Source: Bacteroidales bacterium
GTDB taxonomy: Bacteria > Bacteroidota > Bacteroidia > Bacteroidales > JAADJA01
DNA: 42,744 nucleotides
Reading direction: 5' to 3'
Assembly (NCBI GenBank): GCA_020438135.1
Contig: JAGQVF010000187.1
Location: 1-42,744 of the forward strand
In this document: piece by piece, positions 9,166 through 24,764 of the stretch
Position numbering within the stretch: position 1 is the first letter of the stretch
Layout of the letters: every line of letters starts with the position of its first letter
Notes under the pieces: model-generated
Seen by the model: the letters and a program-made list of their open reading frames with translations, nothing else
What the model was told of the DNA's origin: nothing
Database searches by the model: none
Made by a program: the position numbers and the translations under genes

Positions 9166-12100
9166 TTACCGAATGATAAGTCGCTTTTTATATTTACCTG
9201 AATCGGTATTGATCCTTAGTAGATACAATCCTTTCTGAAACCCGTTTATATCGATAAAGTAGTTTTTCTCACCCGGTGAAGCATTGTAAACATTTTCACC
9301 AAGTGAATTATACATTTCGATGCTGCGGATTATATCCATCGATTCAACATTTACCTTATGATCGGCGGGATTTGGATAAACATTAATATTACCGGCAAGC
9401 AAATGCTCAATGTTATCGATAAGGATCAATACCGTATCGGTCGATCCCGATTCGCCTTCGTCGTACATGGCCGTAACAAAATATTCGTGTTTCGTGCCAT
9501 TGCCGGTTGCATTTAGGTGGATGAAACTGGTGTTGGTAGCATAAGCAAGCTGGTTGAACCCTGCATTGTTCAGGCTGTAATAGATCTTATAGCCGTTACA
9601 CGCATTTCCTGCTGGCTGCCCCCAGTTCAAATGGATATCCGGCAGGATAATATCAGCCGTGAGATCAACCGGAGGTTCAAGCATTGACGGAATGTAAATA
9701 TTAATGCACGAGGGATTTGATTCACCGTTTTCACAAACCGTGGTAACACAATATTCATAGGTAATGCCGGGTGTAAGCGAATCGGTGATCATGGTTCCGT
9801 TTGTGATAAAACCAACCAAATTCCCATTGAGGTGTACATTAAAACCGAGGGTCGTTCCTACAAGTGGCGGATCCCATGTTAGCTCAAACTGATAAGGATT
9901 GACAGGTACAGCAGCCAGGTTCTCCGGTTGTCCGCAGGGTTCATCTATTGTTACAGTGGCAATATTGGAACAGGAAGACTCGCCTTCATCATACATCGCT
10001 TTGATGCAATAGTCGTATGTGCCCGGAGCAAGATTAAAATCAGTATAAAACGTAGAGAATGCGTTACCAATCAAATCTCCATCACGGTAAATGTTATAGT
10101 ACAATAAATCTTTTGTACCTTTTTGCTTAAATACCGCAGATGGTGAAGAAATACCCATTTCTTTGGCTGAAACAAATTGTGGTTGCGAAGGAAAATCCGG
10201 AATAGTTTTGGGAACCGGCTTAGTGATGCTGGATAAACTTTTACCACCTTCCACAAAAGCAGCAAGGTTCCAGTTATAATCCAAACTTGGACTTATATCA
10301 GTGAGGGGGCTCCATGTAATGGCATCGTTAGAGATCATATCACCTTTGGAATAAACAGACGGACCATCATCACAACCGGCAGGGAAAGTTCCCACATCAT
10401 GTGTTACAGCATATCCAAACCACAATTCTTCGGAGGCATCGATAATAACAGGATTATCCAGTTCAACCTGATTAAACTGATCGACGGTATAAGAATTTAC
10501 AGGTTGCGACAAAACCAGCGTTTGTGCATTGGCTCCGGTCCATATCATTATTTCAAATTCTGCATCAGTGTACTCATTGGGGAAGAATGAGATTTCAGTG
10601 ATCTGCAATCCGTTATAATCAACAAGATCTTCAGGCAGCCAATGGGAAGCAACATAAAAGGTTCCACCACTGGTTAATCCAATTCCGTTTCCATTATTTA
10701 CTCCCAAATCCCAACGGATCCATTCCATGAATCCACCTGAAGGGGCGTCCCAATGAAGACCAACATTATTACCCGTAACCAATGCGGTAAGATTTTCAGG
10801 AGGATATAGTGTTTCTTGTATAATAACCTGTTCAATATTTGAAGCATCAGACTCGCCGGTATTGTATACTGCCGTAACATAATAATTGTATGTACCCGGC
10901 TCAAGTTCCATATCTTCAAAAGTTGTTAAACTGGTATAACCCAAAAAATTGTCGTTTCGATACACCTTATAATTGTTTGGAGAACCGGAAGCGGGCGGAT
11001 CCCAATCAAGGGTTACGTTGTTCTGTTCTAATACGGTAGCTGTAAGATTGGTTGGTGGCATCAACCCGGTGGCCTGGGTGAGGCTGAAATCCTGTGTTGT
11101 AGCATTACCGGCTGAAATCGTTACCGTTTCAGAAGCATTCAGGTAACCCATCCTCGAACAGACTGCGGTATAATCACCCGGGGCTATATTATTTATAAAG
11201 TACTGACCGTTGGCCAGGCTGGTACCGGTAATGGAAGTACCCGACAAGGAGACGGTAGCTCCTTCAATTGCACCACCTCCGGTTGCATCCGTCACGATAC
11301 CTTCCAGCATTCCTCCGGACACAACCGGAATAAGATCCGACTTCAACACCGGCACATACTGAAAATAGTTATCGGTAATCGGGTCCTCATCACCCCTGAC
11401 ATGCAAACCAGGCTCATTGTCTTCCATAAAAAGCAGATGAATATAATCATCGCTTGAAGGAGAACAGGAGGGAAATACACATTCACTGAAATAATAAATC
11501 AGGTCTGCATTCAAATCGACGAAATCGCCCCAGGTTTGTCCTCCATTGTTTGAACCCCGAGCCCAGATGTGCCTGTAATTCTGTAAACCGTTATCGTAAC
11601 CTTCGGTAACTGAAGAATAAAGCAAGAATACATTGTTCATCTCATCAATTACCAGTTGTGGCATCGACGAAAACCCGACATAATAGAGCCCCTGATCACC
11701 AAGGATATCCAAAACTCCGTTGTTGTTCAGATCCTGCGACCAGCCGATGAGGTTATAATCCTGAATTAATTCTGTTCCCACACCGCCATAAGGATTCAGG
11801 GCATTCAGGTTATCAGAAAATGTGGGCATATCTTCGTTCCAGTAGGCAACACCATCTACCAGTGGAAACCATGACATGGATATACCATCGCTCATGGCCC
11901 GGTTGATGCCAAAAGCAACATGCACTCTACCGGTGTTATCGAAGGCGAGGCTGTGGGATCCGTCGGAACAGTAAAAAGTATCGGTAACGATAGCATTATT
12001 GGGATCGAATAACGGGTAAGGGTGTTCCCAGATCACTGTTTTTGTCCAGTTATCACCGTTATCGGTTGATTTCATCAGTACCAGGTCGGTCCAGTCGTCA

Positions 12101-14568
12101 CCCACCAGGAAAGCGACAAGGTTATCCCGTGCGATGATATCATACGAATCGCCGCTAAAACCTACATAATCATCAGCATCGATCCCATCCAGCAAAACGT
12201 GTTCATGATCCCAGGTTTGTCCCCCGTCGGAAGATCTCGAATACAATAGTGCGCCGTCCATTCCCTGGTAAACTACCCCACCATTCGAAACAGGGGCTGT
12301 AAGTGCGATCACATGAAGATCGTTATGATCAACGCCCCCGGTTGCTGCCCTTGGCCAGAGATAATAAGCATCGACAGTCGGTCCGATATAATTCGAAGAA
12401 TTCCAGCTACCTGATCCTTTGTTTGGACGGGTGTTGATCGAAAGCCCATCGAGGGAGGTACCTGAATAGTGCGAAACCACCATTTCACCGTTTGCTCCCC
12501 ATGGAACATAAGAGGGCCATCCGGCACGGTAGGGCTCAACCGTGGTGGTAGGCTGAGGGTCCCAGTTTGTACCGTCGAAATAGTTATACCCGGTACCCCG
12601 GTCGGAAAAGTTTGCATTGATACTATATATAAAAGTTGCTCCGATGGTTCCATCCGGGTATTTATAAATTCTTCCGGGCTCACTACTGTTTGTTTGGAGG
12701 TCGTACCAGGTCATCCCAATAGCACCTTCAAGAGGAACTGACACAGGTTCGAGTGTAAATGAATGAGAAGTGGTTTGACCTTCATATATATTTACCAATA
12801 CGGATTCTTCAATATAACCCGGGCGTGAGCATGAAACCCAGTAAGTCCCTTCAGGGATGTCGTCGATAAAGTAAAATCCTGTAGAACTGCTGGTGGCACT
12901 TAACGCTGTGCCCTGAACTTCAACCAAAGCTCCCTGCAAAGGAGAGCCAGTGTTTTGATCGGTAATATATCCTTCCAGGTATCCCTCCGAAGTAACATTG
13001 AAGAAAATATCCATGTCGGTCAACAAATAAAGCATGTTATTCAAACCATAAGGATCTTCATCTCCTCTCACTGCCAATCCTGGTTCAGAATCTTCCTGGA
13101 AGATCATATGAATGTTACCATCAGAAGTTGGCGAACAGGAAGGAAAAACACATTCACTGAATATATAGATCAGTTCATCATTTAAATCGAAGAAATCGCT
13201 CCAGGAGGTAGTTGCATTTTGAAAACCCCGTGCCCAGATATGCCTGTAATCCTGTATTCCATTATTATAGGTTTCGGTTATTGATGAATAAAACAGGAAT
13301 AGATTATTTGCATTGTCAACTATAAGCTGGGGCATGCTTGAAGTACCAACAAAATATAACCCAACATCACCCATAATATCGAGTGTGCCGTTTCCATTTA
13401 TATCCTGCATCCAACCCACCAGATTGTAATCCTCCACCAGTTCAGTGCCCGGGTCGCCATAAGGGCTTAATGCATTAGGGTTATTTGTAAAGGCAGGCAT
13501 GTCTTCATTCCAGTAGGCTAAACCATCCACCAGCGGAAACCAGTAAACGATATCACCATCGCTATAAGCCCGGTTTATGCCGAAGGCCACATGAATTTTT
13601 CCTGTATTGTCGATAGCGAGGCTATGCGCACCATCGGCACAATAGAAAGTATCTGTAACATATTGATTGTTGGGATCCCATTGCGGATAAGGGTGATCCC
13701 ATATGACTGTTTTGGTCCAGTTGGTACCGTTATCGATGGATTTAAACAAGGCAAGTTCCTGCCAATCTTCACCAACAAGAATTGCGACTGTATTATCTTT
13801 CCCGTAAATTTCATATGAATCGGCCCTGATACCTGAATAATCTGCTGATCCCGCTCCGGGTAGAATGATATGCTGTATATCCCAGGTGTTGCCGCCATCC
13901 TGCGAACGGGAATACACCAACGCACCATCCTGCCCCTGGTAGAGGGTTCCGCCGTTGTCTACCGGAGTTGTTAGGGCGATCAAATGAAGAGTATTATGAT
14001 TGGTGCCGCATGTAGAAGCTCGTGGCCACAACAAACCCGTTGCCCCGGCAGGAGGATTAACCGAAGATTCTGTCCAATTTCCAGCCCCTTTATTCGAACG
14101 TTTGGAAATAACGAGCGAATTCGTAGTGTGAGCCACCACCAGTTCCCCGTTCGTTCCCCAGGGCATGTATGAAGGCCAGCCGGTTCGTACCGTTTCGATA
14201 CGTGATGTTGGGGGAGCATCCCAATCAGACCCGTCAAAATAATTATAACCGGTGCCGCGGTCAGAAAAAGATGGATCAAACATTCCGTACGTAAAGGTGG
14301 CTCCGATAGTACCATCAGGATAAAGATGAATCCGGTTCTGACAACTGGCATTGGATTGGAGATCGTAGATGGTTTCACCGACATAATCCGCATATTTTAA
14401 GGAATTTGCGTTTTGAATAATTGCAGGTGAAAGATTTTCGGTTTCGGCTGTGGCGGTTTTATTTATCACCGCTTTGTTTCGTAAATTTTCAGGAGCATAA
14501 ATCCTTTGACTATATCCGGACTGCAATGTTATTATTGCTACCAGAAACATCATAAACAGTTTTTTCAT
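9166..14568 (-). CDS. 1800-residue T9SS-secreted protein: two Asp-box propeller modules, carboxypeptidase-regulatory-like and FN3 domains
   Basis: The signal peptide is MKKLFMMFLVAIITLQSGYS. Two homologous modules of about 460 residues follow (about 55-520 and 615-1075). Each contains Asp boxes such as SQDGGNTW and SIDNGTNW in the first, and SSDGGQTW and STDNGDNW in the second. Such boxes mark sialidase-like beta-propellers, but I see no sialidase FRIP motif, so the activity is unknown. Each module is followed by a carboxypeptidase-regulatory-like (CarboxypepD_reg) domain, at about 528-612 and 1083-1165. Fibronectin III domains fill about 1170-1715, one of them interrupted by an inserted module (about 1280-1480). 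The protein ends in a T9SS sorting domain (NINVYPNPADHKVNVES onward, about 1718-1800), so it should cross the outer membrane by type IX secretion. It is transcribed alone from the region at 14569-14939. Architecture is clear; substrate or ligand is unknown. Confidence 0.9.
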   Translation of the reverse strand: MKKLFMMFLVAIITLQSGYSQRIYAPENLRNKAVINKTATAETENLSPAIIQNANSLKYADYVGETIYDLQSNASCQNRIHLYPDGTIGATFTYGMFDPSFSDRGTGYNYFDGSDWDAPPTSRIETVRTGWPSYMPWGTNGELVVAHTTNSLVISKRSNKGAGNWTESSVNPPAGATGLLWPRASTCGTNHNTLHLIALTTPVDNGGTLYQGQDGALVYSRSQDGGNTWDIQHIILPGAGSADYSGIRADSYEIYGKDNTVAILVGEDWQELALFKSIDNGTNWTKTVIWDHPYPQWDPNNQYVTDTFYCADGAHSLAIDNTGKIHVAFGINRAYSDGDIVYWFPLVDGLAYWNEDMPAFTNNPNALSPYGDPGTELVEDYNLVGWMQDINGNGTLDIMGDVGLYFVGTSSMPQLIVDNANNLFLFYSSITETYNNGIQDYRHIWARGFQNATTSWSDFFDLNDELIYIFSECVFPSCSPTSDGNIHMIFQEDSEPGLAVRGDEDPYGLNNMLYLLTDMDIFFNVTSEGYLEGYITDQNTGSPLQGALVEVQGTALSATSSSTGFYFIDDIPEGTYWVSCSRPGYIEESVLVNIYEGQTTSHSFTLEPVSVPLEGAIGMTWYDLQTNSSEPGRIYKYPDGTIGATFIYSINANFSDRGTGYNYFDGTNWDPQPTTTVEPYRAGWPSYVPWGANGEMVVSHYSGTSLDGLSINTRPNKGSGSWNSSNYIGPTVDAYYLWPRAATGGVDHNDLHVIALTAPVSNGGVVYQGMDGALLYSRSSDGGQTWDHEHVLLDGIDADDYVGFSGDSYDIIARDNLVAFLVGDDWTDLVLMKSTDNGDNWTKTVIWEHPYPLFDPNNAIVTDTFYCSDGSHSLAFDNTGRVHVAFGINRAMSDGISMSWFPLVDGVAYWNEDMPTFSDNLNALNPYGGVGTELIQDYNLIGWSQDLNNNGVLDILGDQGLYYVGFSSMPQLVIDEMNNVFLLYSSVTEGYDNGLQNYRHIWARGSNNGGQTWGDFVDLNADLIYYFSECVFPSCSPSSDDYIHLLFMEDNEPGLHVRGDEDPITDNYFQYVPVLKSDLIPVVSGGMLEGIVTDATGGGAIEGATVSLSGTSITGTSLANGQYFINNIAPGDYTAVCSRMGYLNASETVTISAGNATTQDFSLTQATGLMPPTNLTATVLEQNNVTLDWDPPASGSPNNYKVYRNDNFLGYTSLTTFEDMELEPGTYNYYVTAVYNTGESDASNIEQVIIQETLYPPENLTALVTGNNVGLHWDAPSGGFMEWIRWDLGVNNGNGIGLTSGGTFYVASHWLPEDLVDYNGLQITEISFFPNEYTDAEFEIMIWTGANAQTLVLSQPVNSYTVDQFNQVELDNPVIIDASEELWFGYAVTHDVGTFPAGCDDGPSVYSKGDMISNDAITWSPLTDISPSLDYNWNLAAFVEGGKSLSSITKPVPKTIPDFPSQPQFVSAKEMGISSPSAVFKQKGTKDLLYYNIYRDGDLIGNAFSTFYTDFNLAPGTYDYCIKAMYDEGESSCSNIATVTIDEPCGQPENLAAVPVNPYQFELTWDPPLVGTTLGFNVHLNGNLVGFITNGTMITDSLTPGITYEYCVTTVCENGESNPSCINIYIPSMLEPPVDLTADIILPDIHLNWGQPAGNACNGYKIYYSLNNAGFNQLAYATNTSFIHLNATGNGTKHEYFVTAMYDEGESGSTDTVLILIDNIEHLLAGNINVYPNPADHKVNVESMDIIRSIEMYNSLGENVYNASPGEKNYFIDINGFQKGLYLLRINTDSGKYKKRLIIR

Positions 14569-14868: not shown

Positions 14869-14876
14869 TACTTTTG
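14869..14876 (+). promoter_or_regulatory. Candidate -7 box for the GH106-like lipoprotein gene
   Basis: TACTTTTG matches TAnnTTTG. It overlaps the upstream TTG (14874) that would extend the open frame, which supports using the ATG at 14940 as the start. Confidence 0.4.
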
Positions 14877-14939
14877 ACAGACGCTTGGGAACATAAAAAA
14901 ACATCATCAGGAAAATTGAAGAAGCGATATCAACTAAAT

Positions 14940-16904
14940 ATGATTAAAACATCATTTAAAACAATCATTTTCTTTCTTCTTTTCAGCGCTTGCCAGGCAC
15001 CCCAACTGAAGCAAAATCCGTCAGGAGATAACCCTGATACAAATTCTTATAAACCGCTTGCCCGCTATTGGTGGTTTGCTTCGGAAATTAAGAAAAAAGA
15101 CGTCCGGTACAATCTGAACTGGCTGAAGGAAAATGGCTTCGGAGGTGTGGAACTGGCCTGGGTTTATCCATTAAATGCCAGAAAAAAACCGGTGGATACT
15201 GTCTATACACCCAGGCAACCCTGGCTTTCACCTGCCTGGCAGGAGATAGTTGAATACACCATGCATTATGCCGATAGCCTGGGTTTGCAATGCGATTTTA
15301 CATTGGGAACGTTATGGCCATTCGGCGATTCGTATGTGCTGCCGGAACAGGCTTCCCGAAATTTCTCCGGAGATATTCAAACCATGCGGCTTACATGGGA
15401 ACATCCCAAGCAGGGTTATGTGGTCGACCATTTAAACAGGAAACATTACCTCGCCTATCTCAGGAGGATGATCGATTCGTTGCCTGATCCGGGAACTGAG
15501 TTTAAACATGCCGGTTTTATCGATAGCTGGGAAGTTAAAACGGAGCTTTTGTGGACCGACCATTTAGATGATGATTTCACGAGCATTTACGGCTATGACA
15601 TCAAACCCTGGATGGATCAATTGTATGAACCGGAAAACAGGGATGTTCTTTACGATTACAGGAAACTGATCTCAGAAAAAGTGATCCGCTTTTATGCAGA
15701 TTTCGACAGCATCTTACGTGCTTCCGGTTTCCAATCGAGGGGCCAGTGCTCAGGGGCACCCTGCGACATTATTTCGGCCTATGCCAACATCGCTATTCCC
15801 GAAGGAGAGGCGATGTTATATGAACCTGAGTACAATCAAATACCTGCTTCTGCTGCGCTGCTTTCCGATAAAAAGTTTGTTACCGCCGAAACCTTCACCT
15901 GTTTGTACGGATGGCCCGATAACTACATGAGGCAGGAACAGACAGCCGACCTGAAGCTGGTTGCCGATGCGCTTTTTGCCAATGGCATCAACCGGATCGT
16001 TTGGCACGGAAAACCCCATAATCCGGCAGACTACGATACTGTGAATTTTTATGCAACGGTGCATCTCGGCAAAGAGGGGGCACTGGCCTCAGAACTTCAG
16101 GCTTTTAATGGCTATCTGAGCGAAGTTTCTGCATTTATGCAACAAGGAGAACCTTATACAGATATTGCTGTTTACCTGCCCACTGAAGATGCCTGGATGA
16201 AAGGTGAGATGCCCAAAGAAAAGCAGTTTATCTGGGCAAAAGAGTATTATGAAATGCGCTACATCTATCTCCCGGAAGTTTTGGCCGGCTTTCAACCGAC
16301 ATGGATAAATAATGAATTTCTACAAAAGGCTTCATATAAGGATGGAAAACTGTATTGCGGACAAGGCACATTTTCGGCTTTGTACGTGGGAACTGACCAT
16401 CTCGATATATCAACGCTGCTAAGTATACTAAAACTTGCACGAGCCGGTTTACCGGTTTGCCTAACCCACCGACCTGAGCAGGCCGGGACTCTTAAACACC
16501 CCGGTTGGGACCGGTTTGTGGATCAACTCCTGGACCTTCCACATGTGAGCAGCGAATTTGATTTTAACATTACACCACTGGTTCAGGGGGAAAAGTGCCC
16601 TCCGTTCCGGGCACGTAAAACCGATAATTCATTGTTTATCTTTTTTGCCCATCCCAATTCGAAAGGTTTAAAATTCCCACTTGAATACGGACAATCATTC
16701 ACTGTCGATACGATTGTAATTCCGGTGACTATTCATTATCAAAACCAGGAATACCCGGTTGATCTGACGTTTTTACCATACCGGGCTCTGCTTTATAGCC
16801 TTGAGGATGGTAAACTCAAACAGGTTGAACTTTCGTTTGAACCAAAAACACCTGTAGTAAAACCACGTCCGAAAGATTTTGAAGAGCGGTGGCTGGTGAA
16901 ATAA
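14940..16904 (+). CDS. Lipoprotein resembling GH106-type glycoside hydrolases
   Basis: This 654-residue protein starts with a lipoprotein signal (MIKTSFKTIIFFLLFSAC), giving a lipidated Cys at about residue 18. The segment RYWWFASEIKKKDVRYNLNW followed by GFGGVELAWVYP matches the start of the catalytic barrel in alpha-L-rhamnosidase family GH106 and related uncharacterised 'glycosyl hydrolase' proteins. A GTLWPFGDSYV segment follows, where that group has 'GxGWPxGGP'. Most GH106 enzymes exceed 1000 residues and carry C-terminal beta domains; this one is much shorter, so it may be a minimal relative with a different sugar target. No SusC/SusD pair, regulator or other glycosidase lies beside it. 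The frame could start at TTG 14874, but the signal peptide and promoter position favour 14940. The family call is moderate and the substrate is unknown. Confidence 0.6.
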   Translation: MIKTSFKTIIFFLLFSACQAPQLKQNPSGDNPDTNSYKPLARYWWFASEIKKKDVRYNLNWLKENGFGGVELAWVYPLNARKKPVDTVYTPRQPWLSPAWQEIVEYTMHYADSLGLQCDFTLGTLWPFGDSYVLPEQASRNFSGDIQTMRLTWEHPKQGYVVDHLNRKHYLAYLRRMIDSLPDPGTEFKHAGFIDSWEVKTELLWTDHLDDDFTSIYGYDIKPWMDQLYEPENRDVLYDYRKLISEKVIRFYADFDSILRASGFQSRGQCSGAPCDIISAYANIAIPEGEAMLYEPEYNQIPASAALLSDKKFVTAETFTCLYGWPDNYMRQEQTADLKLVADALFANGINRIVWHGKPHNPADYDTVNFYATVHLGKEGALASELQAFNGYLSEVSAFMQQGEPYTDIAVYLPTEDAWMKGEMPKEKQFIWAKEYYEMRYIYLPEVLAGFQPTWINNEFLQKASYKDGKLYCGQGTFSALYVGTDHLDISTLLSILKLARAGLPVCLTHRPEQAGTLKHPGWDRFVDQLLDLPHVSSEFDFNITPLVQGEKCPPFRARKTDNSLFIFFAHPNSKGLKFPLEYGQSFTVDTIVIPVTIHYQNQEYPVDLTFLPYRALLYSLEDGKLKQVELSFEPKTPVVKPRPKDFEERWLVK

Positions 16905-16931
16905 AAAAACCCGGCGGAAATCCACCGGGTT
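16902..16931 (-). terminator. Terminator of the cohesin/dockerin operon
   Basis: Arms AACCCGG (16931-16925 on the minus strand) and CCGGGTT (16914-16908) flank a short loop with two extra G-C pairs, and run into a tract of seven T's on the minus strand. On the plus strand the T tract is poor, so it works mainly for the minus-strand operon, though the hairpin also closes the converging lipoprotein gene. Confidence 0.8.
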
Positions 16932-16959: not shown

Positions 16960-19344
16960 TTAATCGGGGACTTTATCTGCAATGCCATTATTTGGCAACC
17001 AATAGTTGTTTTTATCGGGGTTATTCACCTGTGTGTCCATATTCATATCACCACCGAAATACCCGCTTTTACCGGCAGAGGGGTCCCATTTTCCGGTAAT
17101 ATCTGTAGCGTTGATCGTTCCGTTACCATCTGCATTTCCGGCATATAAGCCATACTTCCCTCCTCCCAGACTGACCTGACCATTCAGATATGCTTTCGAA
17201 GCTGCGGTTGTAAAATCATAGCTGTAAATTCCTCCATTGGATGTGAGGGGTACGGACGACATCACTGCCAGGTGATTGCGATGCCATATCACCACATATA
17301 GATTTGCAGACGGTGTAAACCCAAATATCAGATCACTGGAACCATCCACTGCTGTGATGGTACCGTCACTGAGGATGAGTGCCGCTTTCCTGCCAACCAT
17401 GGTTGCGGGAGTTGCCGTTGATGCCGCACCGGTGGTTTGCCTGAGTTCAACCAATACCCAGTCCGTTACCGAAGCATTTGGGATCACCCAAAAACTTTCC
17501 GAACCGGTATAAAACCACGGGGTGTTGCTATAAGGTTGACTTTGAGAAATAAACCAGGGATTCAGATCGGTGGTCATGGATGATGTTTCAAAAGGTCCCT
17601 GCAACAGGGCTTTCAGATCGACCACAATTCCACCGGTTCCGATAATTCCGCCATTTTGCAGCAAAGGCAAAGGAATGCCCTCATTAAGCATCAGGTTATT
17701 GAAATTGACAAACGCGAATTCTCCGTTGGTTAAATCCGGATTCAGTTGGAAGCGAAGCTTAAATAACACCCCCTGTGTTGCAATTCCGGCAGTTCCGGCG
17801 CCTGCAAAGGTGATGGTATTTCCGCTGATGTTTTTCACAAATGTCCAACCCGAGCAAAGCGTTCCGGTGGTGATGATATCCACAACCGTCAATTCAGGAG
17901 TATCATAGCCGATGGTCCCCTGCACTGAAAAAATCTGTTGTCCGGCCGGAATGGGTCCGATGGAAACCGGCATATCATATACTGAACCCAGGGTTGAATT
18001 AACCGTAGGAACACCCACCCATGTATCATAAACCGAAATGTTACCGCTATTGCCTGTAGCTCCCACATTATCCGTAACATGCAGTTGAATAACACCGCTT
18101 TTATAAGCTGTCAGCAATCCGGTATTATCGATAGAAGCCACCGATGGATCTGTGGAAGTCCAGGTGTATGGGGGAATGCCGCCACTCACCGAAAATGATT
18201 TGGTTTGACCTGCCACAATGGTATAGGTAGCAGGTGAAATGCTCAGGTTCGGCAGGGTGATCATATTAAACACCCCGTCGACTGTTTTGGCAGCCAGCGT
18301 TTCATTAAAAGTTGCATAAGTGAAATGTAAACCCGTGTTTCCTGAGTATATGGAAGATACATCAAAGACAAGCCTGATCAATTCACCGCTTCCCGTTAAC
18401 GGAGCCGTACCTGCAAAAGCAAATGTAACCTGTCCGGGCACGGTGGTATTCAGTATGAGGTTGGAGTTTCCCTGCAGCATTGTCCCGGCCGAATTATAGC
18501 CTGTTGGAGTCAGGATATTGCTGCTGAAGGTAAACCGGAATTCACCCGCAAGGATATTAAACCCTGAAAGCGTTGTGGTGTTGATCGGAATTTCAACCGT
18601 ACCCCCCTGCCATTCACTTACAGCAGGAATGGTTAACTTCATGGCCCGAACTTCAACAACACCGTTCGTTTCGTCGAGGATGCCATTGTTATCCTGAACC
18701 AAAACCTTTGTGAATCCAACACCAGTAGCTGTAAATAATCCGGAAGATCCAATATTTCCGGTTGCAGGATTGGTCAAACTCCATCCGTAAGGAGCAGTGC
18801 CTCCGGATACTGTGAACTGCTGTGTTTCACCCACTGCCAGGAGGGCGGTATTGGGATTAATGGAGATGGTTGGCAAGGCTGTGACGTTGATCGAGCCGTT
18901 ATCAAATACCATCACCGGTGTGCCTTCATTAAAAAAGTTGGACGTGCTGCCGTTGTTAAAAATGAGGCTTGACCCTCCGGTTCCGGTACAGGTGAAATTG
19001 AGGTACAATAAAACACCCGTCCCTGCAAGCGGCGTACTTCCTGCATGAGCAATACCCAAAATGCCAGGTGTTGAAGTATTATAAACAGGATTTCCCCACC
19101 CCGATGACATGGTACCGGATACAGTTACGTTGTTGGCTGTTATCACATTGCTATTGTAGGAGATTACCAGTTGATACGAATATACGTTCAATCCGGTGAG
19201 GGTGTTGTCGACATATACCGGAATACTGACCACATCGCCATTAACGGCTGTCGGATCAGGAATCCGCATCTGAATGGTCTGCGCCTGGAGGATTGTCCCG
19301 GTCAGCACCACCAGAAGGCCCATTAGTTTTCTGATTCTTTTCAT
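16960..19344 (-). CDS. Secreted protein with three cohesin-like modules, two Ig-like domains and a C-terminal dockerin-like pair
   Basis: From the ATG at 19344 the signal peptide is MKRIRKLMGLLVVLTGTILQAQ; the frame also opens 12 codons earlier, at 19380 (residue numbers here use that longer frame). Three cohesin-like modules are visible at about 36-168, 246-375 and 453-582. Each has a strand of the type VVSIPVYVDN (or TVEIPINT, DMPVSIGP), a paired strand like FRFTFSSNIL, and an ending like FNNGSTSNFFNEGTP. Two BIG2-like Ig domains separate them (about 169-245 and 377-451). A region at 586-735 with VIWHRNHLAVMS matches a cassette I remember from other Bacteroidota secreted proteins. It is followed by two EF-hand-like loops, NADGNGTINATD (749-760) and DMNMDTQVNNPD (778-789), as in dockerins. 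No T9SS sorting domain follows. It starts 44 bases after the upstream gene (8 with the longer start), so they form one operon. Confidence 0.88.
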   Translation of the reverse strand: MKRIRKLMGLLVVLTGTILQAQTIQMRIPDPTAVNGDVVSIPVYVDNTLTGLNVYSYQLVISYNSNVITANNVTVSGTMSSGWGNPVYNTSTPGILGIAHAGSTPLAGTGVLLYLNFTCTGTGGSSLIFNNGSTSNFFNEGTPVMVFDNGSINVTALPTISINPNTALLAVGETQQFTVSGGTAPYGWSLTNPATGNIGSSGLFTATGVGFTKVLVQDNNGILDETNGVVEVRAMKLTIPAVSEWQGGTVEIPINTTTLSGFNILAGEFRFTFSSNILTPTGYNSAGTMLQGNSNLILNTTVPGQVTFAFAGTAPLTGSGELIRLVFDVSSIYSGNTGLHFTYATFNETLAAKTVDGVFNMITLPNLSISPATYTIVAGQTKSFSVSGGIPPYTWTSTDPSVASIDNTGLLTAYKSGVIQLHVTDNVGATGNSGNISVYDTWVGVPTVNSTLGSVYDMPVSIGPIPAGQQIFSVQGTIGYDTPELTVVDIITTGTLCSGWTFVKNISGNTITFAGAGTAGIATQGVLFKLRFQLNPDLTNGEFAFVNFNNLMLNEGIPLPLLQNGGIIGTGGIVVDLKALLQGPFETSSMTTDLNPWFISQSQPYSNTPWFYTGSESFWVIPNASVTDWVLVELRQTTGAASTATPATMVGRKAALILSDGTITAVDGSSDLIFGFTPSANLYVVIWHRNHLAVMSSVPLTSNGGIYSYDFTTAASKAYLNGQVSLGGGKYGLYAGNADGNGTINATDITGKWDPSAGKSGYFGGDMNMDTQVNNPDKNNYWLPNNGIADKVPD

Positions 19345-19388
19345 ACCTGTCGGTTTAATGATTACATTTTTCATTTTCATGATCCATC

Positions 19389-22300
19389 TTACCTGACAAG
19401 CTGAATTTTTTGAGTTTCCACCGAATGGCTGCTGATCCGTTTAACAAAGTACAAACCTGCCGGTAACAATGAACCCCGGGAATCGGTGGTATTCCAATTC
19501 AGGCGATATACCGAAGCATCATGTATACCATTCACGATCTCAGAAACCAATTTACCGGTTATGTCATAAACCCCGATAAAAACATTTTCATTCATTGAAG
19601 AAACAGCATAACTGATTGTAACAAAATCTTTCGCCGGATTAGGATAACAATGAAGGCTACCGTTAGATGTTTTATTTAAATCGAGACCCGTTGAAATACC
19701 ACTGATCATTATGGTTCCCGGATGAATATTTTCCGACAGATCGGTTTCATTGGCTAAAAAGTCAGATGCAGAAATAAAGGTTTGTCCGATCAGCATAACA
19801 TCCGAGGCTTTGAACTTCAGGTTGATCACATCCAGCGAACCCTGCAACTGACTAATCCCTGCGATGGCCACACGGATCACTCCTTCATCCTCTATAACAG
19901 TGTAATTCACGTTCATTCCCGGAATCAGGTTTTCAATATCCGGGGCTTGAATATATACAGGATCATACTGAAACTCCATCTGCATTGAAAATACTCCGGA
20001 AGCATTGGCCAGGCTAACGGGAACTATAAATTCCTGACCGGGCTGAACATTCACATTGGCGATCATCAGCTCGGCTTCCGCCTGATATTGCGGAACAGGT
20101 GAAAGCAGTTCGGCCGGGAAATAAGAAATCAGATTAACCACATACTGCAGGATCAGGGATGCATCAAAAGCAGTGGCACCGGACGATCCCGAAACATCAG
20201 CAACGACCAGTTGCTTTGAACTCAGGAAGGGCGTTACCACATGCTGCAGTACCAGGGAGGCATCATAGGCTTGAATAATGCCATTAAGACTTACATCACC
20301 CATGAGGGGGTTAATCACCCCGCTTGTACCGTAAGGCAGGTAATCCACCGAATTGGTAACCGGTTCGCCGGTTCCTCCCGGATTTCCTGAATGGGTTGGT
20401 CCTGTATTGCTTCCCCACCAGCAGTTTTCGGCATTGATTACAAAAGATTGGTTTACATTGTTGACGCCATAACTGCTCAGGTTATAAAAATCGCAATTAT
20501 TGATCAAAGGATTAGAGGCAGCTGTAGCATAAACCCCATGAGAGCAATTATTGAAGTTGCAATTTAAAATCGAAGGACTTGAACTTATGGTCCGAATCGC
20601 TCCATAGGAGCCATTGGCATAGCGGAAAATACAATTTTCAAACCTGGTTAACGGATCGAGTGCAACATCGTTTATAGTTATTCCCGACCAGGAATAGTAA
20701 TTATAAGGAGTAGCCGTTCCATCGGAGTTTGAGTCACCGCCATGAAAGTCATCGGTAATTGTTGTGAATACAATATTTCCGGCATTGGTAGCCGATCCTT
20801 CAGCAATTAAACCATTGTTAACCGTTATTCCACCACTGCTCCAGAATTTACAAACTACTCCCGGACTGATGGTGAGTGTAACGCCCGTGCCAATGGTGTA
20901 ATAATCAAAGAAATAGGGAATGTTGGTTACACCGCCAAAGTTTCTTTTTGGTAAGGTAACATCCTGTGTCAGGGTTTCATTATTCACCTTAATACATTTA
21001 TAGGTAGTACCCGATATGATATTTCCTGAGGAGGATGCCGGGTAAGAAACAAGTGATATACTCAGGGGAGCGTAGTACAGATCATTAAAGGTATTATTAT
21101 TGATCACCGGGGTACAAACGCCTGAATTGGTGATCCCGTAATTCATTTTATAGAAGGTACTGTTGGTAATGGAAGGGGAAGCACTGTTAAGCCTGATCCC
21201 GTTTCCGGTATATCTCATCAGCATATAGTTGATTGTACTCGCATCATCGCTCACGTCATTGAAGGTAATATAAGCACCTGAATTATTTGGAGCTGTGGCT
21301 GATCCGTTTTGTTCTGTATCCAACGGATTTCCATACGAATCATCTCTGTAATCGGTGAAAACCATCCTGCTTCCTGAACTTCCGGATATGGTGAGTTTAC
21401 CATTTACAGCCAGCTCATACTGACTAGTGCTTTTAAATACGGTTCCTGCCGGAATGGTAATGGTTGTCCCGGAATTGATGGTCGCTCCATAGAACATATA
21501 GGTGATGTTGCTGTAACCTGCGAAACTTCTTTGTGGAATGCTGGCGGTTTGAGAATATGTTTCAGGCTGAATACCAATGGCCACCAAACCGATGTTTGAA
21601 ATGGAATTATTTGAAAATACGGGATTTGAAAACATGGCCATATAAACCGGCTCATCATCAAAGTTATATATCTGGCAATTGCTGATCGACGGATTAGCTG
21701 AACCATAAATACCAAAGGCACTTAAATACCCTTGTTGCAAAACGGTATGATCGATCTGCGCATAGGCATCTTTAATCCTTACGGCACCTTTGGTTGAGTA
21801 AGATCCAAATACATCCGAATAACCACCACCTGTGTACCTGATCTCTGAGTATATTATTTTGTTGTTTGCATCCGATGATTCGGGATAGAATATGATCCCA
21901 TGCCAATCATTGTTGCCCGGAATTGAACCGTTGCCATCATTATTGGTATCCCCGCCCACAGAGTCATCTTTCAGGGAGGTGAAATAGATCTTCTGGCCGG
22001 AAACTCCGGTTGCATTCAGACCTCCGTGAACAAAGATCGCCTGAAATCCCGAGGATTGCATCTTAATAATAATCCCTGATTCAAGCGTTAGAACGGCTCC
22101 TGAAGCAATATTCAGAGCCCTTATGATGTAAGGGATATTGGTGAAACCGGCCACATTTCTTTTCACGAGCGTGGCATTGGATGACAAAGTACCGTTGTTC
22201 CCTTCAATAATCCGGATTCCATTGCTGCCGTTGGCACTGAAACTGATATTGGTAAAAGTAGGATTGGAAGTAAGCGACATGGCAATCGGATCAAGATTGC

Positions 22301-24764
22301 AATTCTGAATGGCAAGGGTATTGAATAATGGCGCTGAATTTCCATCCACATATACACCGTAATAGGAATGATCAATCAATGAATTGCTCAGCGTTGGCGA
22401 GGCATTCAAAGTTTTGAAGACGCCTTCATTGGAGTACCCACCGAAAAGGAAATTTGTATAGGTAACCGTATTGAATACATCATCGCTGTTGTCGCGGTAT
22501 TGTATGTAAGCCCAGTTTCCCGTTGCCGGAGCCGTAGCATTACCATCGCCATTGGTATCCATTGGATTTCCAACATTGTCGTCATATAAACTTGTAAAGA
22601 TTATTTTTTCCGAAACAGTACCACTGCATTTGAACCCACCATCCACATAAATAGTTTTGTTGTACATTTTAATAACAACTCCGGGATCAATGGTAAGATT
22701 CGTCAGGTTTTTAACAGTCAGGTTTTCAAGCAATACATAGGTTATGTTGGTGTAACCGGCAACGGTTCTTTTAGAAATCGTTCCGTTCACAACCACATTG
22801 TTGCCAATGAGTCCCAGGGCATTCATGGTAACATTGGTAAAGGTATTTCCTGAAAAAGTAGGATTAGCCGAGGCCGAAATGGCAAAAGGCGTATTGGTGA
22901 TATTAATCATTGCATTATTTGAAATGATCGGGTTTGATGCCTGGTAGCAACAAATTCCGTAAGTAAGATCCCTGAATTCACAATTGGAAATGGTGGGGCC
23001 TGCCGGTGTGGGAACCGTTGGGTTAATAACTGCTACGGCACTTGTGTAAATATAGTGGTTTTCGCCGCCATTGGGATAATAATAGCTGTTGGCCTGTGCA
23101 TATTTCATTCTCACATAATCCATCTTCGAGGTAGGATCATACCCGCTGGCAAAAATGATAGCACCCACATCACCCAGCGACGGCGAAGTGATGGTTCCGT
23201 CCTTGTTGGTGTCCATAGGATTTCCAAAATTATCATCCTTAACTGAGGTTAAAGTGATCCATTCCGATGATGTAGCATCAGCTGTAAGTTTCCCCTGAAC
23301 TACGATCCGGTGGCTACTGGAAGAATATTTAATTACAATTCCCGGGGCAATGGTGAGAGTCCGGCCTGCCGGTACAATAATATCCGCCAACATCACATAG
23401 GTAATATTGGTAACGGTTGTAAAATTACGTTTGATCAGGTTCGCATTGGCAGTAAGTGTGCCCCCCAGCAATCCGATAGCATCATAGGTATTATCGGAAA
23501 ACGAAAGTACATTGTTGCTGAAGGTGGGATTGGCTTCGAATGACATGGCAATGGGCGTAAGTTCACTCGAACCGATGGTATTATTGGTAAAGTTGGGTGT
23601 GGAAGCATACTGAAAATAGGCTCCGAAATAATTTTGCTGCAGTTCACAATAGTCGATCGTCGGGCCTGCATCATAGAGGCTGATACCTCCGATATTGCCG
23701 GCACCGGCGTACCGCAGCAAACATCTGCGCATGACTGAGGCATCGTTGCTTTCATTGTAAAATTTTATACCAGTCCAGTTCCGGCTTGCAGGTGCTGTAT
23801 TGGTTCCATCATTGTTGGTATCACCGCCCCAGTTATCATCCCTTTCCGATGTGAAATAAACATAATGACCTGCCGAAGGATTAGCGGTAAGGGTTCCATA
23901 GACATTCAATACATCATTTAACTTGAATTTTAAAATGTTATCAGCCCCGATGACCAGGGTACTCCCATTATTAACCGTATAGCCATTATTGAAATAATAG
24001 GGCACCGTTGTAGTTGGCAAAGTCCATGTTCCCGAATGACTGCCGTGGTTAACATAAAATGCATCATAGGTATTTCCGGTGAAATTACAGGTTCCACTAA
24101 CTGATAACGAAGCTGCACCCGAATAATAAACCGGATATTGGTTCAGATTAAAATTACAGGAGGTTATATTTGCCTGGGCTCCGGCAATTAAATTAATACC
24201 CGCAAAGCCATGAATGATGGTGACGGAATTCAGGGTTGAAACTGAACCACTGGCTGTTGTTATTCCATTTCCAGATGAAGAATAACCTGCCATATCGATC
24301 ACACCACCGGTCATGTTCAAAACGCCCTTGTTTTGCACGCCGTAGTAATACACATACTCGATATTGGTTCCTGAAAGTGTGGCTGTTCCGTTTTCGATGT
24401 AAAACTGCTGGGCATAACGCAGGAAGCAGTTGGTAAGGTTGACAGTAGCCGCATAGGTTCCGTTTCCCGTTTGGATAAACTGCCAGTCGCCCGGTGCAGG
24501 AGTGGCAAGGTTGGAAGTGAAAGTTGCAGAGGTTGCATTTAATGTTCCCAATACAATCAGCTTTCGACTGCTGTTAAATTTCACTACCACATTGGCGTCA
24601 ATAGTTAGGGTAACTCCATTGTTGACGGTGATATCACCCGTTACAACATATGGACTTCCGGCCAGGTTCCAGGTCGTATTGACAGAAATCACGCCTGAAA
24701 CATCAGTACTCATTGCATACCCGAACAGGGCCATGCAAAACAAAAGTGCATAGAATTTTTTCAT
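19389..24764 (-). CDS. 1791-residue T9SS-secreted beta-helix protein with dockerin-like and cohesin-like modules
   Basis: The signal peptide is MKKFYALLFCMALFGYAMS. Residues about 20-1480 are a right-handed parallel beta-helix made of six long repeats of roughly 200-220 residues. Each has a strand pattern like TLTIAPGIVIKYSS, a 'FTS..DD' segment and an Asp-rich loop such as GGDTNNDGT or GNPMDTNKDGT (near residues 305, 507, 725, 931, 1140 and 1336). A dockerin-like pair follows at about 1487-1550: GDVSLNGIIQAYDASLVLQH and ADVSGSSGATAFDASLILQY. A cohesin-like module lies at about 1565-1700 and a T9SS sorting domain at about 1710-1791 (LHCYPNPAKDFVTISYAV). No pectate-lyase or other catalytic motif is evident. 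It is the first gene of the operon. The beta-helix, dockerin and sorting domain are clear; the cohesin is likely; the role is unknown. Confidence 0.9.
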   Translation of the reverse strand: MKKFYALLFCMALFGYAMSTDVSGVISVNTTWNLAGSPYVVTGDITVNNGVTLTIDANVVVKFNSSRKLIVLGTLNATSATFTSNLATPAPGDWQFIQTGNGTYAATVNLTNCFLRYAQQFYIENGTATLSGTNIEYVYYYGVQNKGVLNMTGGVIDMAGYSSSGNGITTASGSVSTLNSVTIIHGFAGINLIAGAQANITSCNFNLNQYPVYYSGAASLSVSGTCNFTGNTYDAFYVNHGSHSGTWTLPTTTVPYYFNNGYTVNNGSTLVIGADNILKFKLNDVLNVYGTLTANPSAGHYVYFTSERDDNWGGDTNNDGTNTAPASRNWTGIKFYNESNDASVMRRCLLRYAGAGNIGGISLYDAGPTIDYCELQQNYFGAYFQYASTPNFTNNTIGSSELTPIAMSFEANPTFSNNVLSFSDNTYDAIGLLGGTLTANANLIKRNFTTVTNITYVMLADIIVPAGRTLTIAPGIVIKYSSSSHRIVVQGKLTADATSSEWITLTSVKDDNFGNPMDTNKDGTITSPSLGDVGAIIFASGYDPTSKMDYVRMKYAQANSYYYPNGGENHYIYTSAVAVINPTVPTPAGPTISNCEFRDLTYGICCYQASNPIISNNAMINITNTPFAISASANPTFSGNTFTNVTMNALGLIGNNVVVNGTISKRTVAGYTNITYVLLENLTVKNLTNLTIDPGVVIKMYNKTIYVDGGFKCSGTVSEKIIFTSLYDDNVGNPMDTNGDGNATAPATGNWAYIQYRDNSDDVFNTVTYTNFLFGGYSNEGVFKTLNASPTLSNSLIDHSYYGVYVDGNSAPLFNTLAIQNCNLDPIAMSLTSNPTFTNISFSANGSNGIRIIEGNNGTLSSNATLVKRNVAGFTNIPYIIRALNIASGAVLTLESGIIIKMQSSGFQAIFVHGGLNATGVSGQKIYFTSLKDDSVGGDTNNDGNGSIPGNNDWHGIIFYPESSDANNKIIYSEIRYTGGGYSDVFGSYSTKGAVRIKDAYAQIDHTVLQQGYLSAFGIYGSANPSISNCQIYNFDDEPVYMAMFSNPVFSNNSISNIGLVAIGIQPETYSQTASIPQRSFAGYSNITYMFYGATINSGTTITIPAGTVFKSTSQYELAVNGKLTISGSSGSRMVFTDYRDDSYGNPLDTEQNGSATAPNNSGAYITFNDVSDDASTINYMLMRYTGNGIRLNSASPSITNSTFYKMNYGITNSGVCTPVINNNTFNDLYYAPLSISLVSYPASSSGNIISGTTYKCIKVNNETLTQDVTLPKRNFGGVTNIPYFFDYYTIGTGVTLTISPGVVCKFWSSGGITVNNGLIAEGSATNAGNIVFTTITDDFHGGDSNSDGTATPYNYYSWSGITINDVALDPLTRFENCIFRYANGSYGAIRTISSSPSILNCNFNNCSHGVYATAASNPLINNCDFYNLSSYGVNNVNQSFVINAENCWWGSNTGPTHSGNPGGTGEPVTNSVDYLPYGTSGVINPLMGDVSLNGIIQAYDASLVLQHVVTPFLSSKQLVVADVSGSSGATAFDASLILQYVVNLISYFPAELLSPVPQYQAEAELMIANVNVQPGQEFIVPVSLANASGVFSMQMEFQYDPVYIQAPDIENLIPGMNVNYTVIEDEGVIRVAIAGISQLQGSLDVINLKFKASDVMLIGQTFISASDFLANETDLSENIHPGTIMISGISTGLDLNKTSNGSLHCYPNPAKDFVTISYAVSSMNENVFIGVYDITGKLVSEIVNGIHDASVYRLNWNTTDSRGSLLPAGLYFVKRISSHSVETQKIQLVR

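Follow-up and report, generated by a model that had tools for sequence, protein, structure and literature searches.

What kind of structure is built by two adjoining genes whose secreted products each combine cohesin and dockerin-like modules, in a bacterium with a type IX secretion system (T9SS)? The window (the whole 42,744-nucleotide stretch of Bacteroidales DNA that was analysed) carries two such open reading frames on its minus strand, and their coordinates, Pfam matches and ortholog profiles bear out an earlier sequence-only reading that had described both as carrying cohesin-like and dockerin-like modules. The operon comprises the following features:

19389-24764, minus strand: gene P2, 1791 aa, with signal peptide, beta-helix, dockerin, cohesin and T9SS tail
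20310-24701, minus strand: right-handed beta-helix of P2, six repeats (Pfam Beta_helix 130 bits, six stretches)
20106-20309, minus strand: type I dockerin of P2, aa 1486-1553 (Dockerin_1 27.1 bits, genome scan)
19695-20084, minus strand: cohesin of P2, aa 1561-1690 (PF00963 53.1 bits, genome scan)
19392-19646, minus strand: T9SS type A C-terminal sorting domain of P2 (PF18962, Por_Secre_tail, 38.9 bits; TIGR04183 28 bits)
16960-19380, minus strand: gene P1, 806 aa, with signal peptide, the order Coh-Big2-Coh-Big2-Coh, and the module xdoc
18883-19275, minus strand: P1 cohesin 1 (44.8 bits, genome scan; profile match 3ul4)
18658-18873, minus strand: P1 Big_2 domain 1 (PF02368)
18265-18651, minus strand: P1 cohesin 2 (35.2 bits, genome scan; profile match CipC cohesin 2vn5)
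18043-18249, minus strand: P1 Big_2 domain 2 (PF02368)
17629-18039, minus strand: P1 cohesin 3 (37.7 bits, genome scan; profile match A. fulgidus cohesin 2xdh)
16963-17628, minus strand: P1 xdoc, a domain of about 155 aa followed by a dockerin-like pair, ending in VPD
17160-16963, minus strand: dockerin-like pair of calcium loops within P1 xdoc (profile match to 2vn6)
16908-16931, minus strand: GC-rich intrinsic terminator downstream of P1, with a stem of 10 bp and a T tract

P2 and P1 are separated by 8 bases, or by 44 if P1 starts at the downstream methionine at 19344, the likely start, where orthologs align. This short gap and the terminator at 16931-16908 are compatible with a single transcript, and promoter-like matches were no more numerous than in shuffled sequence. 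The operon context proposed from the sequence thus held, with gap and terminator both present and the pair conserved in synteny. A GH106 alpha-L-rhamnosidase-like gene (14874-16904, plus strand) lies convergent with the operon, and a second large T9SS protein of 1800 aa is encoded nearby (9166-14568, minus strand), with CarboxypepD_reg and fn3 domains and, by NCBIfam, an S-layer-glycoprotein-like stretch.

In the genome scan, each of the four cohesin modules exceeds the PF00963 cut-off of 24.1 bits. P1 as a whole matches the family three times with 94.9 bits. With an AF2 model of the P2 cohesin (pLDDT about 80-90), Foldseek retrieved many solved cohesins at TMt 0.70-0.77, including 2xdh of Archaeoglobus fulgidus, and the P1 model retrieved CaCohA2 (TMt 0.74-0.77); the predicted models are those of cohesins and not of a plain Ig fold. 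When full-length P1 was modelled, the cohesins (pLDDT about 90) and the Big_2 domains (47.3 bits in total for PF02368, over two stretches) were confidently predicted and xdoc poorly, probably because only four sequences of the alignment carry it. The AF2 monomers were uninformative on any cohesin-dockerin interface.

The dockerin of P2 shows the two F-hand calcium loops with helices of a type I dockerin. Its PF00404 score was under the cut-off of 22.9 bits when the protein was scanned singly (19.6 bits) and over it in the genome scan (27.1 bits), and a profile of its orthologs matches solved dockerins over the full length (4uyq, E 1.7e-10). The calcium ligands D1490, S1492, N1494, D1501, D1523, S1525 and D1534 are invariant in nine orthologs. 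Both PF18962 and TIGR04183 exceed their cut-offs at the C-terminus of P2, which confirms the T9SS anchor expected on the larger protein; P1 has no T9SS sorting domain detectable with Pfam or NCBIfam, and the T9SS setting is therefore supported for the operon but not by a recognised tail on P1. The helix of P2 is 46-71% identical to that of orthologs, where they retain it, and a DDxxG..D(T/S)NxDG-like loop occurs in every repeat (aa 305, 506, 724, 929, 1137 and 1334). The D(T/S)NxDG-like loops of this region (20310-24701) resemble a calcium site and are kept across phyla.

The P1-P2 pair is a conserved operon. Relatives of P1 with 35-55% identity were found at twelve named loci, in records labelled Bacteroidales, Paludibacter, Ignavibacteriales, Chlorobiota, Cloacimonadota and Neomarinimicrobiota, and P2 lies upstream of P1, on the same strand, in all 11 that have upstream DNA; both Cloacimonadota loci hold an extra single-cohesin gene between P2 and P1. 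Among 395 surveyed Bacteroidota genomes, P1 was present in 22 and P2 in 14, every genome with P2 also having P1 (Fisher p 1.6e-20 for co-occurrence), and at all 16 P2 loci of these 14 genomes P1 adjoins it on the same strand. A diverged P2 also adjoins P1 in three genomes with a weak P1. At the survey loci, every P2 ortholog carries a T9SS tail, and P1 likewise ends in one at each of the 14 where its ORF is complete. At one locus (L097, genome G240), a TAG stop interrupts P2 and its N-terminal part forms a separate ORF. The distribution is patchy, with the operon in 2 of 118 Cloacimonadota genomes, and a P1 tree of 26 sequences is compatible with transfer or loss as the source of the cross-phylum spread.

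In some genomes the operon accounts for all detectable dockerins and cohesins, where detectable means matched by Pfam, which divergent modules could escape. In G385 (99% complete), the sole Dockerin_1 match is that of P2 and all three cohesin matches lie inside the operon. The only detectable dockerin and cohesins of the drafts G399 and G402 (completeness not given) are also found there, and G120 (100% complete) has no dockerin match other than that of P2, with four of its five cohesins in the operon. Several other operon genomes contain additional dockerins, 16 of them in G401. Where dockerin and cohesins are confined to the operon, the partner of the dockerin is probably located within P1 or P2.

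The operon is best explained, and probably so, as coding for a cohesin-dockerin assembly of the outer cell surface that is self-contained and non-cellulosomal. The T9SS would export and retain P2, presumably at the surface, where the protein may present a long beta-helix that has many putative calcium loops and, at its base, the dockerin and the cohesin. P1 would act as a three-cohesin connector into which the calcium-loaded P2 dockerin is predicted to plug, so that up to three P2 could be gathered per P1, and the cohesin of P2 itself would permit further linking. Such an assembly may play a role in adhesion or in the building of surface fibres. More tentatively, in the window's lineage P1 would most likely dock through xdoc to an anchored cohesin and have no anchor of its own. 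Based on the conserved synteny and on the genomes with operon-only cohesins and dockerin, the non-cellulosomal, self-assembling surface scaffold that had been suggested from the sequence is likely.

Alternatively, the P2 dockerin could bind the cohesin of the next P2, giving a polymer in which P1 serves as cap, branch point or base. Dockerin and cohesin do adjoin each other in P2 of the window and its orthologs, and a lone operon would suffice here as well, but of all modules in the operon the P2 cohesin shows the lowest conservation (32% mean identity between orthologs, compared to 40-47% for the P1 cohesins), unlike the dockerin that it would have to match, which is the best conserved one (mean 64-66%). 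As every P2 found also had P1 beside it, such homotypic chains appear unlikely. The conservation of the dockerin above all other modules further argues, along with the co-inheritance of P1 and P2, the predicted cohesin folds and the full-length dockerin match, against a reading in which the cohesins are mere Ig-like spacers and the dockerin is a calcium-stabilised end cap that docks to nothing; this reading is considered highly improbable.

The C-terminus of P1 is formed by xdoc, a module of about 220 aa for which Pfam yielded no dedicated family and which in P1 holds a divergent dockerin-like pair at its end. Against PF00404 this tail reached 10.5 bits, under the cut-off, with a best E of 0.0056 among 10 members, so that a search with Dockerin_1 recovers the pair in P2 but not in P1. 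A profile of the last 66 or so residues of the family nevertheless matches, at E about 5e-4, the C. cellulolyticum dockerins 2vn6 and 2vn5 over the two calcium loops, and profile comparison with the P2 dockerin gave no relation and no alignment. As xdoc aligns with solved dockerins and not with that of P2, two dockerin types are likely. The dockerin-like pair previously ascribed to P1 thus finds support in the alignment with solved dockerins, but belongs to a separate family.

About 50 copies of xdoc occur on secreted proteins of the window's genome (G000), examples being L029:2202-7397, L024:5008-7947 and L021:155-1834, and profile A1 found the module in 42 of the 395 Bacteroidota genomes. 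In most of 48 xdoc ORFs of the window's genome it lies at or a few residues from the C-terminus, and none of the 48 carries a type A T9SS tail, which is found in at least 150 places elsewhere in this genome. Peptidases and binding domains make up most of the recognised cargo, which also includes some glucan-related modules. Peptidase partners belong to C25, the gingipain type (four), M14 (two), S8, C1 and M1, and further partners include a Porphyromonas-type peptidyl-arginine deiminase, nuclease/phosphatase folds, PKD and GEVED. The absence of linked catalytic domains noted from the sequence is therefore true of P1 and P2, but many other xdoc copies of the genome are attached to enzymes.

In the window's lineage, xdoc stands in for the usual T9SS tail of P1. 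Genomes in which P1 ends in xdoc contain about 50 copies (G000, that of the window), 10 (G395, L064), 31 (G396, L065) and 32 (G402, L071), and 0-2 copies were found in each of the seven other genomes of the named records, where P1 lacks xdoc. Cohesin matches occur in 20 of the 42 xdoc genomes vs 74 of the 353 others, which is above expectation (p 4e-4, with genomes that are related and not independent). A strict linkage of xdoc and cohesins across genomes was rejected, as the other 22 xdoc genomes, some with 3-5 xdoc copies, have no cohesin match. Three more clusters of adjoining cohesin genes occur in the window's genome (C11 in L021, C95 in L022 and C384 in L025), and a single cohesin-xdoc protein is encoded in each. 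At C95 the neighbouring protein combines a cohesin with a T9SS tail over the cut-off, giving an anchored cohesin next to a cohesin-xdoc protein. The tail of the neighbour is borderline at C384, where a Dockerin_1-like neighbour is also present, and no such pairing was detected at C11.

Perhaps, in the window's lineage and possibly alongside the self-contained assembly, the cohesins of the operon and others of the genome hold dozens of xdoc proteins, many of them peptidases, in a cellulosome-like cargo complex, with the operon supplying scaffoldins for surface proteolysis. The dockerin resemblance of the xdoc tail, its C-terminal position in some 50 copies free of type A T9SS tails, the peptidase, deiminase and nuclease-like cargo and the cohesin co-occurrence above expectation are consistent with such a complex, as is the way in which the xdoc number of a genome follows the tail type of P1; G402 has 32 xdoc copies, and its detectable cohesins are confined to the operon. 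The many xdoc genomes without a cohesin match, the failure of P2 dockerin and xdoc tail to align and the export of the xdoc proteins, which is not accounted for, speak against it, and the cargo complex is regarded as possible, though doubtful. The genomes without cohesin matches would rather suit a role of xdoc as a different kind of C-terminal signal, for sorting or retention, in place of the type A tail, with calcium loops that just stabilise the fold. Here, xdoc occupies the position of the T9SS tail of orthologs, the two never occur together in the 48 ORFs, and the module is found on typical T9SS cargo types such as C25 and the deiminase, but P1 has no Pfam or NCBIfam T9SS tail, and the dockerin resemblance and the cohesin enrichment also count against this role, which is likewise regarded as possible, though doubtful. 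That xdoc is instead a dockerin-based surface tag, and that the lineage has shifted dozens of secreted proteins from T9SS tails to docking, can be put forward only as a rather doubtful proposal.

The self-contained assembly has relatives in several known systems. Among the nearest are AF2375 and AF2376 of A. fulgidus, which we take to be adjoining genes, one encoding a cohesin and a dockerin and the other one cohesin. These are noncellulosomal as well, and the cohesin structure 2xdh is matched by P1 cohesin 3 and the P2 cohesin, but they are archaeal, lack T9SS and beta-helix, and the partner has a single cohesin where P1 has three. Coh76-Doc75 of A. fulgidus has served as a binding pair (PMC9705933). 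ANME archaea encode noncellulosomal proteins in which a dockerin is combined with multiple cohesins, in other organisms, with other accompanying domains and not in this operon (PMC9012536). Cohesins and dockerins in a T9SS organism are not without precedent, as a cellulosome-like system has been proposed for Candidatus Stygibacter of the Cloacimonadota; in the accessible parts of its description, a cohesin scaffold has a T9SS-type C-terminal domain and dockerins occur on peptidases, including C25, and glycosidases (PMC8542988). Unlike P1 and P2, the scaffold described in these parts is one scaffoldin of 3,755 aa with CBM2/CBM3, and no two-gene operon of beta-helix and tri-cohesin proteins appears in them (PMC8542988).

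With the clostridial cellulosome, the proteins share cohesin and dockerin modules, the logic of anchoring and adaptors and a dockerin-like C-terminal tail with an extra domain before it. However, a cellulosome entails a CBM-carrying scaffoldin together with carbohydrate-active enzymes that bear dockerins, and neither P1 nor P2 has a CBM or catalytic domain; anchoring is by T9SS instead of SLH or sortase, and the operon is the only cohesin source in some genomes. The operon is a variant of known cohesin-dockerin systems, with the cellulosome excluded. In a literature search with most subscription journals outside its coverage, neither the operon nor xdoc was found described.

To our knowledge, no clear function has emerged for noncellulosomal cohesins and dockerins in the decades since they became known. 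The operon, with four cohesins and one dockerin, offers a minimal testable case, being the sole source of detectable cohesins and dockerins in some genomes. If xdoc is indeed a surface tag, the cohesins for its clients would be anchored by the operon and its relatives, and the lineage would possess a proteolytic equivalent of the cellulosome, anchored through the T9SS, with gingipain-type peptidases among its tail-less clients. With the swap of T9SS tail for xdoc and the genome-wide expansion of xdoc, docking vs T9SS anchoring of secreted proteins becomes testable in a Gram-negative lineage.
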